NCBI RefSeq assembly: GCF_002355395.1 | Contig: NZ_AP017315.1 | Location: forward strand, 1,860,001-1,924,000 | DNA: 64,000 nucleotides | Reading direction: 5' to 3' | From: Microcella alkaliphila | GTDB lineage: Bacteria > Actinomycetota > Actinomycetes > Actinomycetales > Microbacteriaceae | Shown here: positions 43,409-50,165 of the stretch, one piece after another | Layout of the letters: the number at the start of each line of letters is the position of its first letter | Numbering within the stretch: the first letter of the stretch is position 1 | The notes under the pieces: model-generated | Databases searched by the model: none | What the model was told of the DNA's origin: nothing | Seen by the model: only the letters and a program-made list of their open reading frames with translations | Made by a program: the position numbers and the translations under genes

Positions 43409-43435
43409 GGGGCCCCTTTCCCGGGTGACCCGTCG

Positions 43436-43441
43436 AGTCTA
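43436..43441 (-). promoter_or_regulatory. -10 box for the lipoprotein gene
   Basis: TAGACT on the minus strand, 27 bases before the ATG at 43408, so this message would have a short leader carrying the AAAGGGG site. Confidence 0.4.
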
Positions 43442-43581
43442 CGGTCGCGGCGTGGGCACGAGCGCCCGGAGTAGTACACGACAGTCGCTGGAAAAAAACA
43501 CGGGCGGCGAGCGACGTATTCGATATCCGAACACGAACAATTGCACTCGCTTGCACCCATCACACTGCCGGAGCAGACTCA

Positions 43582-43677
43582 TCTCAGGAACAGCGGACAG
43601 GCGATCGGGGGATCGCCGGGGGGCCGCAACCGTGACAGGGGTTTTCGACCGTTCGGGTCGGACGAAAGCTCCTGAGA
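43582..43677 (+). ncRNA. Candidate structured leader RNA (three-way junction)
   Basis: The 396-bp gap between 43409 and 43804 has no gene but contains ordered complementarity. P1: TCTCAGGA (43582-43589) with TCCTGAGA (43670-43677). Inside, P2: GCGG/CCGC (43593-43596, 43624-43627) enclosing GGCGATC-GGGG-GATCGCC (43600-43617), and P3: CGACC/GGTCG (43646-43660), extendable by two pairs. An intrinsic terminator follows six bases later on the plus strand. This is the order expected for a riboswitch-type aptamer with a terminator, or for a small RNA. It does not match any riboswitch consensus I can recall. The plus orientation rests on the T-rich tail of the terminator. Confidence 0.5.
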
Positions 43678-43682
43678 CACAT

Positions 43683-43733
43683 CGGCCGTTCCTGGCCTCT
43701 TCGGGTGGGGCCAGGAACGGCCGCTTCTCTTTC
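43683..43733 (+). terminator. Strong intrinsic terminator upstream of the signalling cluster
   Basis: CGGCCGTTCCTGGCC (43683-43697) pairs perfectly with GGCCAGGAACGGCCG (43709-43723) around an 11-nt loop, and is followed by CTTCTCTTTC. No plus-strand protein gene lies upstream to be terminated, so it must end a non-coding transcript or attenuate the leader of the gene at 43805. Confidence 0.8.
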
Positions 43734-43804
43734 ACGGCCGCGCACTCGCGGTACCGTGAGCCACGGACGTAGCCGAACCGCTACCGGCGGAAGGACCCCC
43801 ACCG

Positions 43805-45214
43805 ATGTCGAGCCTGAGCGCACGCGCGGCTTTCGGTGGTGCCTGGTCGACGCACTGGACGATCTGGGCCGGCCTCTACCCGGTCACGCTGCCGTTCGTC
43901 GTCTACCGCGACCAGGCGCTTCGCCCCGACAGCGTGTGGTGGAGCGTCGGCTCGGCGACGGTGCAGCACATCGCGGTCGGTCTCGTGGTGGTGGGCGTCG
44001 GCGCGATTCTCCGCCGCAGGCGCAGCATCCTCCCCGTGGGCGTCGTGGCCACTCTGTGGATCCTCGCGTGCGTCGTCCGTGCGGCCGTCGCCTACGCCGT
44101 GACCGCGGTCGGGTACGCCGAACAGTCGTCTCTGATCATCGACACGCTGATTTGGCTCGGCATCAGTGCGCTCTGGGTGCCGGTGACAGTGTTCGCGGTC
44201 GCGCAGCTCGACCAGCGACGCCTGTTGCTCGCGGCACGCGACATCACGACGGATGCTCTGCTCAGCGAACGCGCGGAGGGCGAGGAGACCTCGCAGCAAC
44301 TGCAGGCGCGACTGCTGGCGACCGTGACAGCCCAGCTCACGCCGGTGCTCGCTGACCTCCAAGCGAGCCTCAACGCCGCCCGACGCCGCATCACCGGGTC
44401 GACGGCGGCCGAATTGAGCATGCGAATCTCGCGCGTGCACGACGAGACGGCGGAGCTCGTCGAGGGGGAAGACACCCCCGACCCGTCGCCGGCACTGCTG
44501 GAGCGCGCAGAACGGGTCACCTTCCGCCGCGCCTTCGAGATCACCACCGTGCCGCCGGCGCGCATGGCCGCGCTCGTCACCCTGGCGACGCTCGTCGGAG
44601 TCATCCCCGACACCGTGCGCATTTACGAGCCGATCGTGCCGTTGCAGGTCGCACTCGCGGTGACCGCTTCAGGCATCCTGCTGGCTGCGCTCCCCGCGCT
44701 GTTTGCCGAGCGCGCCTCTCGAGGCAAGCGGATGACCCACCTCCGGGCGACGGTGATTCTGCAGGCGGTGGCCGTCGCTGCTGCGGCCGTGATCCTCGCA
44801 GTGATTCCGCCCAGCGTGTGGTCGTCGGCACAGTGGCCGGTTGTCCCCCTCACCCTGCTGGCTCTCGCGCTCGCTCACACCCTGTATTCGGTCGCCTTCA
44901 TTGTCGCTGACGCGAACGCCGACGACAGTGCAGCCCTGCGCGCGGCGAGCGCCGAACTCGACGCGGTGCGCGGACAAAGGGCGGAACGCTCGCGGCTGGC
45001 GCGAGAGCGCATGGCGCAGCTCATGCACGGGCCCATCCAGGGACGCCTCGCCGCCTGCGTCATGGCACTGAACTTCCATGCGGAGATGGTGAACAGCGAC
45101 CCGGCGCGGGCGGAGGCCACGCTCGACGCCGTGCTCGAACACCTGCAAGCCGTGACCGGAGAGCTTCAACGACTGGGCGCCGAGGCCGGGCTGGGCGACG
45201 TGCGCCACCCCTGA
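43805..45214 (+). CDS. Membrane sensor protein with histidine-kinase-like DHp helix but no ATPase domain
   Basis: 469 aa. Four hydrophobic helices at about 20-130, a long helical cytoplasmic region, a second group of helices at about 250-360, and a C-terminal coiled coil. The latter holds ERMAQLMHGPIQGRLAACVM, which looks like a HisKA_3-type phosphoacceptor helix with His408. The protein stops about 60 residues later, so no N, G1 or G2 boxes of a catalytic domain are present. It could be phosphorylated by the hybrid kinase encoded two genes downstream. Ribosome site CGGAAGGA. Confidence 0.75.
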   Translation: MSSLSARAAFGGAWSTHWTIWAGLYPVTLPFVVYRDQALRPDSVWWSVGSATVQHIAVGLVVVGVGAILRRRRSILPVGVVATLWILACVVRAAVAYAVTAVGYAEQSSLIIDTLIWLGISALWVPVTVFAVAQLDQRRLLLAARDITTDALLSERAEGEETSQQLQARLLATVTAQLTPVLADLQASLNAARRRITGSTAAELSMRISRVHDETAELVEGEDTPDPSPALLERAERVTFRRAFEITTVPPARMAALVTLATLVGVIPDTVRIYEPIVPLQVALAVTASGILLAALPALFAERASRGKRMTHLRATVILQAVAVAAAAVILAVIPPSVWSSAQWPVVPLTLLALALAHTLYSVAFIVADANADDSAALRAASAELDAVRGQRAERSRLARERMAQLMHGPIQGRLAACVMALNFHAEMVNSDPARAEATLDAVLEHLQAVTGELQRLGAEAGLGDVRHP

Positions 45215-45280: not shown

Positions 45281-45667
45281 ATGGCTGCACCCGACCGGCC
45301 CGCCACCGTGGTCGTCGCCGATGACGACGATCTGGTGCGTACCGTGTTGCGGATGGCGCTGTCGTCGATGTCGCTCACCGTCCGCGAGGCGGCCGACTCG
45401 CGCGCTCTCGCCGCCGCCGTCGACGACGGCGCCGTCGACCTCACCATTCTCGACATTTCGATCCCAGGGCCGGGACTCGCGGCGAACGTTGCACTCGTGC
45501 GGGAGGCGGCGCCAGACGCGCGCATCCTGATCCTCAGCGGCGATACCGAAGTACCCGCGAGCGAGGCGCCCCTCATCGACGACTTCGCCCGCAAGCCGAT
45601 AGACCTCGACGAACTACGGAGTCGAGTCAGCCACCTGCTCGGCACTCCGTCGGCGAGCACCCCATGA
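45281..45667 (+). CDS. Stand-alone receiver-domain protein
   Basis: 128 aa, a single CheY-like receiver: acidic cluster VVADDDD (14-17), phosphoacceptor Asp58 in LTILDISIPG, and the conserved Lys in DFARKPIDLDEL. No output domain. Its stop overlaps the hybrid kinase start by four bases, so it probably shuttles phosphate or tunes that kinase. First gene of the operon 45281-48605. Confidence 0.9.
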   Translation: MAAPDRPATVVVADDDDLVRTVLRMALSSMSLTVREAADSRALAAAVDDGAVDLTILDISIPGPGLAANVALVREAAPDARILILSGDTEVPASEAPLIDDFARKPIDLDELRSRVSHLLGTPSASTP

Positions 45668-47958
45668 GTGCGAACGAGTCGCCGGACGGTCCAGAACTGC
45701 TGCGAATCGCCGGAACAATGGCCCGTTTCGGAGGGTGGTCCGTCGATGCGCGGACCCACCAATTGGAGCTGAGCGCCGAAGCGAGGGCGATACTCGCCCT
45801 GCCTCCGAGCGGACCGCTCGACCTCGCGACGGTCTTCACTTTGCATCCCGAGGAGTGGCGCCCGGTCGTTGCTGCTCACCTCGAACGGTGCCTCACTGCT
45901 GGTGAACCTTTCGACATCGAGTCCCCTATGCGCACCACCGACGGGGAGCTCTTGACGATTCGTACGATCGGCGAAGCAGCCCGGGGGGCCGACGGAAGCA
46001 TCGAACGCGCCCATGGCGCTGTGTGGGACATCACGGCGACCGCGGAGCAACGAGAGCGCACTCGAGCGCTCGAGGCGCGACTGGAAGCAACGCTGAACAC
46101 CATTACCGACGGGATGCTCTTCATCGATCACGAGGGACGATTCACCTTCGTCAACGATGACGGCGCCCGCATGCTGCAGTCTTCTGTCGAATCGCTCGAG
46201 GGGGTCAGGGTGCTCGACGCGTTTCCGGAGGCGGCCGGCACGAGCTTTCTCGCGGCCCTGGAGACGTCGTTGACGCGCCGCGAACGCACAATCACCCGCA
46301 ACTATTACCCGCCACTTGATGCGATCTTCGAGGCGACCATCTACCCCTCCGATAACGGCGTTGCGGTCTACCTGAAGGATGTGACCGAAGAGGAGCGACT
46401 TCGCGACGAACGCGAGGAGTCGGCGCGGCGGCTAGCCGAACAGGCCGCGCTCATCGAGGCCGCCAAGGACGCCATGATCGTCCGCGATCTTGACGGTCAC
46501 ATCACCTACTGGAACCGCGCGGCCGCGGCGCTCTACGGCTGGTCGGCAACGGAGGCCATCGGCCGGGCTGAGCACGAGCTGCTGTACGACGACACCGCCG
46601 CCTACGATGACGCGGTCGCTCACACACTGCGCGACGACTATTGGAGTGGCGAGCTCGACCAGCGGACGCGATCGGGCCGCGCCCTGGTCGCCGAGTGCCG
46701 CTGGCAGTTGCTCCGCGACGGCTCGGGCGCCCCCGAGTCGATCTTCGCGGTCGTCAGCGACATCACCGCCGAGAAGAAGGCTCAGGAGGCTCGCTTGCGC
46801 GCCCAACGCATGGAAAGCCTCGGCACCCTCACTGGGGGCATCGCCCACGACCTCAACAACGTGCTGACGCCGATTCTCATGTCGGTGCAGCTTCTCGAGC
46901 AGGGAGAAGACAACCCGGGTCGTCGGGAGATCCTGAAAACCATGGAGGGCGCCGTCAAGCGCGGCGCCGACATGATTCGCCAGGTGCTGTCGTTCGCCCG
47001 CGGGGTCGAAGGACGCCGCGTCGAGGTCGATGTCGTCCGTCTCGTCGACGACGTCGTGGCGTACGCCCAAGATGTCCTGCCGGAGAGCGTGCACCTCGAT
47101 CTCGTGCTCGACACGAGTCTGCCCGCGACGAGCGGCGACCCGACCCAGCTGCTACAGATTCTCGTGAACCTCGTGACGAATGCGCGTGATGCCATGCCGA
47201 GCGGCGGCACACTGCGCATCCGCAGTTCGGAACTGGTCTTGGAGGATACGTACTCCTCCGTCAGCCACCTCGCCATGCCGGGGCGCTACGTGGCGATCGA
47301 CGTGGAGGATTCCGGTCACGGCATGAGCCCCGAGGTCGCGGAGAAGATCTTTGAACCATTCTTCACGACGAAGGACATCGGCAAGGGGACGGGGCTCGGG
47401 CTCGCCACGTCACTCGCAATCGTGCGTAGCCACGGCGGCTTCATGCAGGTCTACAGCGAGCTGGGGCGCGGAACCCGCTTCACGGTCGGCTTGCCCGTGT
47501 CGTCGTCTCCGCGCGCCGACAGCCCCGCGGCCGCACGCCCCGAGGCGCTACTCCCGCGCGGACACGGGGAGCGCATCCTCGTCGTCGACGACGAGTCGAC
47601 CATTCTGCAGATCACGTGCCAGACGCTGGAGCTCCACGGCTACCGAACCCTGCGGGCCGCGAACGGGCGCGAAGCGATCGACGTCATCGCCAGCAGTAAC
47701 GAGCCCGTCGACCTCGTGCTCACCGACATGATGATGCCCGTCATGGATGGCGCTGCGCTGTCGGCGCACCTCGAAGAGGAGCACCCGGAGATTCCGGTCA
47801 TCGCGGCGAGCGGGCTCAATTCGAACGGCGGTGTTGCGCGCGCGGTCGGAATGGGCGTGTCGAGGTTCCTGCCGAAGCCGTACACGACGAACATGCTGCT
47901 CACCACGGTGCGGGACACGCTGCTCGAACACCGTGTCGACGGTATGGTGACGGAATGA
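45664..47958 (+). CDS. Triple-PAS hybrid sensor histidine kinase
   Basis: 764 aa, no transmembrane segment, so a cytoplasmic sensor. Three PAS domains in a row (about 15-130, 138-250 and 268-385; the third has ITYWNRAAAALYGWSATEAIGR). HisKA with GGIAHDLNNVLTPIL (His395). HATPase_c with NARDAMPSGG, DSGHGM and GKGTGLGLA. A C-terminal receiver starts ILVVDDEST with phosphoacceptor Asp688 in LTDMMMPVMDG and ends FLPKPYTTNML. PAS domains may bind haem, flavin or small ligands; none is evident. Overlaps both neighbours by four bases. Confidence 0.95.
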   Translation: MSANESPDGPELLRIAGTMARFGGWSVDARTHQLELSAEARAILALPPSGPLDLATVFTLHPEEWRPVVAAHLERCLTAGEPFDIESPMRTTDGELLTIRTIGEAARGADGSIERAHGAVWDITATAEQRERTRALEARLEATLNTITDGMLFIDHEGRFTFVNDDGARMLQSSVESLEGVRVLDAFPEAAGTSFLAALETSLTRRERTITRNYYPPLDAIFEATIYPSDNGVAVYLKDVTEEERLRDEREESARRLAEQAALIEAAKDAMIVRDLDGHITYWNRAAAALYGWSATEAIGRAEHELLYDDTAAYDDAVAHTLRDDYWSGELDQRTRSGRALVAECRWQLLRDGSGAPESIFAVVSDITAEKKAQEARLRAQRMESLGTLTGGIAHDLNNVLTPILMSVQLLEQGEDNPGRREILKTMEGAVKRGADMIRQVLSFARGVEGRRVEVDVVRLVDDVVAYAQDVLPESVHLDLVLDTSLPATSGDPTQLLQILVNLVTNARDAMPSGGTLRIRSSELVLEDTYSSVSHLAMPGRYVAIDVEDSGHGMSPEVAEKIFEPFFTTKDIGKGTGLGLATSLAIVRSHGGFMQVYSELGRGTRFTVGLPVSSSPRADSPAAARPEALLPRGHGERILVVDDESTILQITCQTLELHGYRTLRAANGREAIDVIASSNEPVDLVLTDMMMPVMDGAALSAHLEEEHPEIPVIAASGLNSNGGVARAVGMGVSRFLPKPYTTNMLLTTVRDTLLEHRVDGMVTE

Positions 47959-48605
47959 GCGCCCCCGAGGCCCGACACTTGCGCGTCGTCGTCGCGGATG
48001 ACGACGCCTTCACCATTTCGCTCGTGGCCGGCGCGCTCGAATCCTCCGGATACGCCGTGACCACGGCGACCACCGTGGAGGAGGCGTTTCACCACGTCGC
48101 GACGGGCGAACCGCACGCGCTGGTGTCAGACCTCAACTTCGGCACGACGCGGACGGGTGCCGACCTCTTGGCGAAGGTCGCCCACGAGTTTCCGTGGATC
48201 GGGCTGGTGGTGCTGACCTCGCACCGCTCCCCCGAATTGGCCGTGCCGAATCCGCAACTCATCCCCGACTCTGTGGTGTACCTGGTGAAGTCGAAGCTCG
48301 GCGCGATCGGCGAACTGCGCGGAGCCGTCGAACGCGCGATCAGCGGCGCCACGAGCGACGGGGAGCCTGCGGTTGACGACGAAGGAATTCCCGTCGTCAC
48401 CGCCGCCCAGGCGGAGGTACTGCGCATGCTTGCGGAAGGCGCGTCGACGAAAGCATTGGCTGATCACCGCGGAACGTCGGTACGCGCAGTCGAGACGATG
48501 TTGCATCGACTGTTCGACGCCCTCGGAATCGACACGAGCGACGCCGCCAACCCGCGTGTTGCCGCCGTGCGGATGTGGCAACGCGGCGAGATTCGCGTGC
48601 GCTAG
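47955..48605 (+). CDS. Response regulator, receiver plus LuxR-like HTH
   Basis: 216 aa. Receiver with VVVADDDAFTISLV, phosphoacceptor Asp59 in LVSDLNFG, and VYLVKSKLG at the end. The C-terminus (about 148-205: VVTAAQAEVLRMLAEGAS, then LADHRGTSVRAVETMLHRLFDALG) is a LuxR-type DNA-binding domain. Similar in form to the regulator at 24086. Last gene of the operon and the likely output of the hybrid kinase. A convergent terminator follows. Confidence 0.92.
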   Translation: MSAPEARHLRVVVADDDAFTISLVAGALESSGYAVTTATTVEEAFHHVATGEPHALVSDLNFGTTRTGADLLAKVAHEFPWIGLVVLTSHRSPELAVPNPQLIPDSVVYLVKSKLGAIGELRGAVERAISGATSDGEPAVDDEGIPVVTAAQAEVLRMLAEGASTKALADHRGTSVRAVETMLHRLFDALGIDTSDAANPRVAAVRMWQRGEIRVR

Positions 48606-48611
48606 AGACGG

Positions 48612-48653
48612 CACGCTGCCCCGCACCGTTCGGGTCAGCGCGGGGCAAGCGTG
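48612..48653. terminator. Convergent hairpin between response regulator and ssb
   Basis: CACGC-TGCCCCGC pairs with GCGGGGCA-GCGTG (one bulged A), a 13-bp stem with a 15-nt loop. Placed between two converging genes, it can serve both directions. Confidence 0.65.
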
Positions 48654-48664
48654 GGCGGCCGCCG

Positions 48665-49144
48665 TTAGAACGGCGCGACGGCCTCGGTCTCTGCCGCAAC
48701 CGGCTCGGGCGCGGACTGCGTCTCTGCGCCGGTCGGCTGCACGGCGGCGGGTGCACCCTCACCCTCGGCGGACGTCGTCGACGCCGCCTTTACGGTGCGG
48801 GTGAACGTCGAGCGGCCGAAAGTGAGGTCGTGGCCCACCGTGTCGGCGTCGATCTCGATCGTCGTTCCCTTGTTCGTGTCGCTCTGCCAGTCGCGCTGGC
48901 GGACGCGGCCGGCCACGACGACGCGCTCGCCCTTTCGCACGCTCGATGCCACGTGCATCCCGAGTTGACGGAAAGCGGTCACGGTGTACCAGTTGGTGTC
49001 GCCGTCGATCCACGCGTTCTGGCTGCGATCGAAGCGGCGCTGGTTGGACGCGAGCCGGAACGAGGTGATGGTGAGGCCGTTCTGGGTCGTGATGTGGCGC
49101 GGCTCAGTGGCGACGAGCCCCGTCACGGTGATGGTGTCGGTCAT
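48665..49144 (-). CDS. ssb: Single-stranded DNA-binding protein
   Basis: 159 aa. OB-fold at residues 1-112: ITVTGLVATEPRHI, then TSFRLASNQRRFD, and NWYTVTAFRQLGMHVASSVRKGERVVVAGRVRQRDW. An Ala/Glu/Pro-rich tail ends in APF rather than the usual acidic DDDIPF, so partner-protein docking may be weaker. In actinobacteria a second SSB (SsbB-type) often has a shortened or altered tail, which suggests this is a paralogue, not the essential replication SSB next to rpsF. Confidence 0.92.
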   Translation of the reverse strand: MTDTITVTGLVATEPRHITTQNGLTITSFRLASNQRRFDRSQNAWIDGDTNWYTVTAFRQLGMHVASSVRKGERVVVAGRVRQRDWQSDTNKGTTIEIDADTVGHDLTFGRSTFTRTVKAASTTSAEGEGAPAAVQPTGAETQSAPEPVAAETEAVAPF

Positions 49145-49312
49145 GGTGTCCTCCTCATGGGTGTGTGGGTGGACGCCGGACGGTTCGTGCCGGGAACGCC
49201 CGGCGTCCGCGCACAGTGTCGGCGCGCACCACAGTGCGGCGGCGGCACAAGCCGCGAAGTGTCGAAGCCGCGACGCGGCCGCCGCGTGGGGAGGAGGGAC
49301 GCCGGAAAGCGC

Positions 49313-49525
49313 CTAGTGTTCGCGGAACTCAGGCCGATCGGCGCCGGGACCGAGCGAGGCGGTCAACGCGCCCTTCGCCGCATCCAAGGAGTCGAACGGG
49401 CCGCGGAGCTCATCTTTGCCGGCAACACGGATCGAGAATTCGTCGCCGTGCCGCAGAATCGATCCGACGGTGCCCGCCGAGCCGGTCGCGACCCAGCTCT
49501 GGTCGTAGACGGTGTGGTTAGTCAT
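49313..49525 (-). CDS. Small conserved hypothetical protein
   Basis: 70 aa, acidic C-terminus. It opens NHTVYDQSWVATGSAGTVGSIL and contains GKDELRGPFDSLDAAKGALTASLG, resembling a small beta-beta-alpha module. An AGGAGC ribosome site precedes the ATG. No known function; no Cys and no membrane segment. The 168 bp between it and ssb hold no clear gene. Confidence 0.7.
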   Translation of the reverse strand: MTNHTVYDQSWVATGSAGTVGSILRHGDEFSIRVAGKDELRGPFDSLDAAKGALTASLGPGADRPEFREH

Positions 49526-49607
49526 CGGTGCTCCTTACTCGTCACGCAGGGACGTACTCGGTGCACTCATCGACGGTACTCCTCCGGCGCCGAGGCCGGT
49601 AGGGGCG

Positions 49608-50135
49608 TCAGCGGGAGCGAAGGTAAGGAGCGTACGACTGACGCACCTTGTTGACCTTCGGAAGAGCGACCGCCAGGCAGTAGCCCTGGCCAGGGTTCTT
49701 CGCGAAGAAGTCCTGGTGATACTCCTCCGCGTCGTACCAGTAGCCGAGCGGAGACAGCTCGGTCACGATCCCGCCGCCCCAGGTGTCGTCGGCGCGCGCG
49801 ATCGCCGACTCGAACAGCGCACGCTCCTCGTCGTCGGCGTAGAACATCGCCGAGCGGTACTGCGTGCCGATGTCGGCCCCCTGACGGTTCAGCTGCCGCG
49901 GGTCGTGCAGGGTGAAGAAAACATCCAGGATGACGTCGGCGGGAATGATCTCCGGATCGAACACGACCTTCACGGCCTCCGCGTGCCCGGTTGTGCCCGT
50001 GCAGACCTGCTCGTAGCTCGGATTCGGCAGGCTTCCGCCGGTGTAACCAGAGATCACATCCTCGACTCCGTCGAGCACGCGGTAGACCGCATCCAGGCAC
50101 CAGAAGCAACCGCCGGCGAGGTGAAAGGTACGCAT
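49608..50135 (-). CDS. msrA: Peptide methionine sulfoxide reductase A
   Basis: 175 aa. The active-site motif GGCFWCLDAVYRVLDGV contains the catalytic Cys. GYTGGSLPNPSYEQVCTGTTGHAEAVKV, then FFTLHDPRQLNRQGADIGTQYRS, and the C-terminal resolving Cys in GQGYC are all present. It reduces the S-epimer of methionine sulfoxide in oxidised proteins using thioredoxin. The ATG at 50135 is chosen because the family begins with (M)xTxxxAGGCFWC; a TTG lies seven codons upstream. Confidence 0.96.
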   Translation of the reverse strand: MRTFHLAGGCFWCLDAVYRVLDGVEDVISGYTGGSLPNPSYEQVCTGTTGHAEAVKVVFDPEIIPADVILDVFFTLHDPRQLNRQGADIGTQYRSAMFYADDEERALFESAIARADDTWGGGIVTELSPLGYWYDAEEYHQDFFAKNPGQGYCLAVALPKVNKVRQSYAPYLRSR

Positions 50136-50159
50136 GCGCTCATGGTACGCAGGCAAAGC

Positions 50160-50165
50160 TAGAGT
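50160..50165 (+). promoter_or_regulatory. -10 box for leaderless aldo/keto reductase gene
   Basis: TAGAGT, six bases before the ATG at 50172. Confidence 0.5.

Follow-up and report, generated by a model that had tools for sequence, protein, structure and literature searches.

A predicted small RNA gene with its own putative promoter and terminator beside a phosphorelay gene cluster in Microcella

The CsrB/RsmZ-type small RNAs of the Gac/Rsm systems go together with a hybrid kinase and a LuxR-type regulator, have a palindromic site upstream and fold into several hairpins. 6C RNA is a small RNA of high-GC Actinobacteria with two or more hairpins, and ANTAR leader RNAs consist of two hairpins with 6-nt loops that carry an A at position 1 and a G at position 4. 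To our knowledge, few small RNAs have been described in Microbacteriaceae; literature searches combining Microbacteriaceae with sRNA and terminator, or TTCGGGT with terminator and hairpin, returned no paper, and a search for Microcella with small RNA revealed nothing related. Here, we describe a predicted small RNA of 148 nt (43586–43733, plus strand) from the window, i.e. the whole stretch of 64,000 nt of Microcella alkaliphila DNA that was analysed. The prediction is based on promoter position, terminator, fold and a covariance model.

The RNA lies in a gene-free gap of 396 bp (43409–43804) between a minus-strand DUF6993 gene, which adjoins an EttA gene, and a plus-strand signalling cluster of four genes. 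The first-pass annotation had reported this gap and the absence of a plus-strand protein gene upstream of it, and both statements hold, as only shadow ORFs are present on that strand. The first gene of the cluster (43805–45214) encodes a sensor-like protein of 469 aa, which by eye is a multi-spanning membrane protein with a degenerate sensor kinase. HisKA_3 matched this protein below the Pfam cut-off (E 0.039 only), and an alignment of 15 revealed an invariant HGP(I/V)QGR(L/I)AACVMALNFH close to the C-terminus. It is followed by genes encoding a receiver-only response regulator of 128 aa (45281–45667; Pfam Response_reg, 6.4e-13), a PAS hybrid histidine kinase with a receiver of 764 aa (45664–47958; Pfam PAS, HisKA, HATPase_c and Response_reg) and a response regulator of 216 aa (47955–48605; Response_reg, 3.7e-10) with a weak LuxR-type helix-turn-helix (GerE, E 0.0013, below the Pfam cut-off), all on the plus strand. 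The receiver-only regulator and hybrid kinase genes overlap at 45664 in the window and are separated by approximately 400 bp in most relatives (L096–L107). Further downstream (48575–50162), the plus-strand ORFs are shadows and minus-strand genes are likelier, namely an SSB gene (48665–49144, Pfam), a 70-aa ORF (49313–49525, a likely gene) and an MsrA gene (49608–50156, Pfam).

Folding from the predicted start (43586–43733) gave -82.9 kcal/mol compared to an average of -61.3 for shuffled sequences (z -5.5; 0/200 shuffles as low) and yielded the hairpins that covary among the copies; the predicted RNA matched covariance model R1 over 1–150 with 146.1 bits. The first hairpin, HP1 (43593–43627), has an outer stem GCGG/CCGC, an inner stem of 7 bp, a GGGG loop (43607–43610) and a G-rich 3' bulge. 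HP2 (43636–43674) has the loop UUCGGGU (43652–43658), and the same 7-nt loop (43700–43706) caps the 17-pair stem of the terminator hairpin (43683–43723), which is directly followed by the T-rich tail CTTCTCTTTC (43724–43733). All of these elements are on the plus strand. With its G+C-rich stem and U-rich tail the window has both parts of an intrinsic terminator, the tails being weak in several relatives; a loose terminator rule found 1 in 1.5 kb, with 0.6 expected from shuffles. The first-pass annotation had described a terminator stem with a T-rich tail and two further hairpins, which correspond to the 17-pair stem, HP1 and HP2. It had also placed an 8-bp closing helix, TCTCAGGA/TCCTGAGA, around these two hairpins, and this part did not stand: the letters are present, but only 40.9% of 176 cells pair in 22 aligned copies, which is below shuffles (44.9%), and covariation was not found. 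Moreover, the first four bases of the 5' arm TCTCAGGA precede the predicted transcription start A43586. By comparison of the copies, HP1, HP2 and the terminator hairpin each stand on their own stem.

Covariation, which the first-pass annotation had named as a check on the structure, was strong in four helices of the Microcella copies. In a plain MAFFT alignment of 22 copies, which is not fitted to a model and in which the outer stem of HP1 was put in register by eye, 92.4% of 919 cells were paired and 29/42 pairs had changed on both sides; 0/500 shuffles were as high on four measures and 34/500 on the fifth, the number of pair types. The model-fitted alignment of 25 copies, which leans towards the proposed structure, had 95.2% of 1028 cells paired and 34/42 pairs changed on both sides, with 0/500 shuffles as high on any of the five measures and slid controls at no more than 50.9%. 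In this alignment, the paired cells and the pairs changed on both sides amounted to 98.8% and 5/7 for the inner stem of HP1, 88.0% and 5/5 for its outer stem, 91.3% and 11/14 for HP2, and 99.2% and 13/16 for the terminator hairpin. C-GGGG-G of HP1 is invariant in 25/25 copies, including those of G010 and G018 with differing stem letters; CG-UUCGGGU-CG of HP2 was found in 24/25 copies, the exception being a paralogue in G021, and UUCGGGU of the terminator in 24/25, the loop of G018 being one U shorter. A check for a small ORF with ATG starts revealed no ATG common to all 25 copies.

A DNA search of 60 genomes found the RNA in 22, all within the 26 Microcella members and including the genome of the window (G000), and the covariance model found it in 24/26 Microcella genomes. 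The same 24 genomes encode orthologues of the sensor protein (33–38% identical in most), and the RNA is directly upstream of the sensor gene in 24/24 primary loci. In 14 loci, the matched genes keep the order of the window as far as the contig reaches; in L100, a second hybrid-kinase match was found farther on. The two genomes without the RNA are G003 and G017. In G003 (99% complete), the genes that come next to EttA and DUF6993 are far-side genes matching the SSB, MsrA, aldo-keto reductase and EamA stretch of the window; neither the RNA nor any of the four signalling genes lies in between. In G017 (81% complete), neither a sensor nor an RNA match was found, and the best match to the hybrid kinase there has 46% identity and lies in a different setting; since DUF6993 was likewise not found, the stretch may be unassembled. 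Judged from these loci, a five-part module of the RNA with the four signalling genes is the best reading. Covariance searches with stricter filters, by which divergent homologues may be missed, gave matches at E ≤ 0.01 in 8/299 genomes, 6 of which are Microcella, with G088 and G257 weak, and in 14/398 genomes, 10 of which are Microcella, with G088, G152 and G395 weak. Plasmids, phages and viral contigs had no match.

Upstream of the RNA, a palindrome TTCG-N5-CGAA (43519–43531, plus strand), predicted to be a likely activator site, is found at the same place in 25/25 copies; TTCGNNNNNCGAACA matched the window once, compared to 0.12 matches expected. On the same strand follow a putative -35 element TTGCAC (43551–43556) and, after a spacer of 17 nt, a putative -10 element CAGACT (43574–43579). 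This layout is shared by 25/25 copies, the G021 paralogue included, with TTGC 18–19 nt after the 15-nt palindrome match and CAnnnT after a spacer of 17–18 nt; it was read by hand in L054 and L068 and by script in the remaining copies. The predicted start A43586 is 7 nt past the -10 element and in most copies corresponds to the A right before (C)GGAACA. Relative to it, the centre of the palindrome is at about -61 (script values -60.5 or -61.5), and around -61 is the usual site of a class I activator. At the level of sequence, the parts expected of an activator-controlled small RNA gene were found together: a conserved site, a promoter, a structured RNA and its own terminator.

The palindrome is not restricted to this promoter. 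Matches to RTTCGNNNNNCGAACA numbered 1 to 11 per Microcella genome, a full palindrome counting twice, compared to 4 over 26 genomes for the reversed control. TGTTCG-N5-CGAACA lies near diverse Microcella genes (e.g. G000:C1:2001499-2001515), its neighbours being glgE and, by eye, genes encoding acetyl-CoA synthetase, pilin and secreted proteins. The palindrome on the glgE side, between a glycogen-phosphorylase-like gene and glgE, was found in 8/26 genomes only and is missing in many RNA-bearing genomes too, where some loci end short upstream. Together, the sites are perhaps a small regulon. Since the palindrome occurs elsewhere, including in G003, which has no signalling cluster, the regulator of the cluster may not be the activator.

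The one clear paralogue of the RNA, a second copy in G021 (2085024–2085139, 72.4 bits with R1), comprises the palindrome, TTGCAC, CAGAGT, HP1 and a UUCGGGU terminator and has no HP2. The end of a LuxR-type gene precedes its promoter, and the copy is followed by a convergent YaeQ gene; since there is no gene downstream in its direction, the unit can apparently stand alone. The first-pass annotation had left open whether this is an independent small RNA or instead controls the sensor gene as a leader. Because of the promoter layout, the terminator and the gene-less paralogue, the former is favoured and the latter weakened. We therefore consider it rather probable that the locus is an activator-controlled small-RNA gene of approximately 148 nt within a phosphorelay module, whose RNA acts in trans. 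Sequence comparison shows the conserved promoter layout, the covarying helices, the co-occurrence with the cluster and the stand-alone paralogue, and transcription, the identity of the activator and action in trans are inferred. According to this reading, an activator would bind to the palindrome centred near -61 and switch the promoter on, and RNA polymerase would make a three-hairpin RNA and stop at the third hairpin. The likeliest candidate for the activator would be the LuxR-like response regulator (47955–48605). The head hairpin with its GGGG loop would most likely work in trans, with a C-rich RNA or a protein as its binding partner. Since the RNA is tightly linked to the cluster, it is suggested to serve the phosphorelay, and it would most likely be an output of, or a feedback on, the phosphorelay of the four downstream genes.

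Cis-acting attenuation is possible, albeit clearly less probable than a trans-acting small RNA. Here, the RNA would be the leader of the sensor operon, GGAAC at its 5' end would pair with GUUCC in the rising arm of the terminator, and polymerase would pass unless something bound at HP1 or HP2 prevents this pairing. The position directly upstream of the sensor gene in all 24 primary loci is consistent with a leader, and so is the helix between the 5' end and the terminator arm, in which 81.6% of 125 cells are paired and 4/5 pairs have changed on both sides, with 0/500 shuffles reaching the percentage, the number of doubly changed cells or the score. However, the G021 paralogue precedes no gene that it could attenuate, and the helix is, by eye, missing from it. 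Furthermore, the helix has 5–6 bp compared to 17 bp in the terminator, its 9 doubly changed cells come from few lineages and one slid control reaches 7, its score of 0.209 compares to 0.161 in another slid control, 500/500 shuffles attain its number of further pair types, and pair 9–132 fails in 9/25 copies. We regard it as improbable that both roles are combined, i.e. that a terminated small RNA has a leaky terminator which feeds part of the sensor transcript, and that the UUCGGGU loops pair with ACCCGA near the sensor start as a feedback. ACCCGA or CCCGAA was indeed found between terminator and start codon in 7/22 loci (2/24 loci with an unsure sensor start were left out), compared to 1.1 on average and at most 5 in shuffles (n = 300), but this excess was noticed post hoc, the loci are related, the locus of the window has no such motif, and the UUCGGGU loop caps unrelated terminators too. 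In the sensor 5' region, CCCC was not in excess (6/22 loci, 6.7 expected), and CCCCC was found in 5/22 loci compared to 1.9, a number reached by 7/300 shuffles. That the locus has no functional RNA and is merely a double terminator or a DNA element is very improbable, since, despite tandem UUCGGGU hairpins behind a MarR gene in G338, a genome of another genus, a plausible plus-strand gene that it could terminate is absent upstream, the promoter layout is conserved, and HP1 both covaries and persists in the G021 paralogue.

The loop UUCGGGU was also searched for outside the RNA. It caps 2/137 distinct hairpin-strands with 7-nt loops in 400 kb of G000, one of which belongs to a possible second RNA, and none in 400 kb of G338 (0/142) or in 100 kb each of G026 (0/19), G031 (0/21), G037 (0/37) and G047 (0/20). 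In Microcella, it recurs in terminator-like hairpins in the window (48629–48635), in L164 (1329–1335) and in L251 and L252; in other genera, successive UUCGGGU-looped hairpins were seen at G338:C1:640809-640968 and at G088:C8:197025 and 263150. The idea that UUCGGGU is a unique recognition loop was weakened by the gene-end examples of L251 and L252: because it caps ordinary Microcella terminators, the loops do not prove that they have a special function. The possible second RNA would be another small RNA of this type, located on the minus strand of G000:C1 at approximately 850,440–850,660 (L156 10440–10660). There, a divergent TetR gene and a convergent gene for an ABC-2-like permease (match below the Pfam cut-off) flank a hairpin with a GGGG loop and, 68 nt further on, a UUCGGGU terminator. 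The sample contained 0.0066 GGGG hairpins of this kind per 220 nt. In G010 (L171), the same TetR/permease pair (60% and 63% identity) encloses a GGGG-looped hairpin as well as UUCGGGU hairpins. Neither locus has a TTCG-N5-CGAA palindrome within 300 bases upstream and, therefore, these RNAs would answer to another regulator. A wider RNA group is a lead only, as it comprises two loci, both noticed post hoc.

The RNA matches no catalogued RNA family, and the failure of the first-pass annotation to match it to known RNA patterns is borne out. With Rfam 15 at gathering scores, no family was found at the RNA, and only two tRNAs elsewhere in the window and one tRNA elsewhere in six relatives were detected; a permissive scan gave three sub-threshold matches (E 1.5 to 8.3). 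6C RNA (RF01066), with which the RNA shares the high-GC actinobacterial background and multiple hairpins, was rejected as family or partner: 0/26 Microcella genomes had a match above the cut-off and 1 below it (a control search also gave 0/14 above), and the loops here, GGGG and UUCGGGU, are G-rich whereas those of 6C RNA are C-rich. Unlike in ANTAR leaders, the loops have 4 and 7 nt (6 in one terminator), and none has an A at position 1. Attenuating leaders and riboswitches likewise have a structured RNA and then a terminator ahead of a gene, but the RNA described here has a gene-less paralogue and no Rfam match. The two successive hairpins of the Microbacteriaceae G338 and G088 share their loop with HP2 and the terminator, but the pair of G338 (58.4 bits with R2) lacks HP1 and a TTCG-N5-CGAA palindrome within 300 bases upstream and lies just behind its MarR gene.

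The likeness to the CsrB/RsmZ-type RNAs comprises a hybrid kinase and a LuxR-type regulator, which here are found in the neighbourhood, an upstream palindrome and several hairpins, with the activator here being a candidate. The difference is in the loops, which have repeated GGA there and are GGGG, UUCGGGU and UUCGGGU here; in most copies, an unpaired GGA is confined to the 5' end. A speculative and rather doubtful extension would be a Gac/Rsm-like but unrelated actinobacterial switch, in which the LuxR-like regulator switches on an RNA whose GGGG head captures an RNA-binding protein or a C-rich RNA, and in which the G021 paralogue and the TetR-flanked RNA at 850.5 kb would be relatives under other regulators that share head and terminator. 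In sum, the RNA is well supported by comparison alone and is tied to a signalling cluster, with start, end and promoter being predicted. If the regulator of the cluster drives the RNA, the module would be an actinobacterial counterpart of the Gac/Rsm logic.
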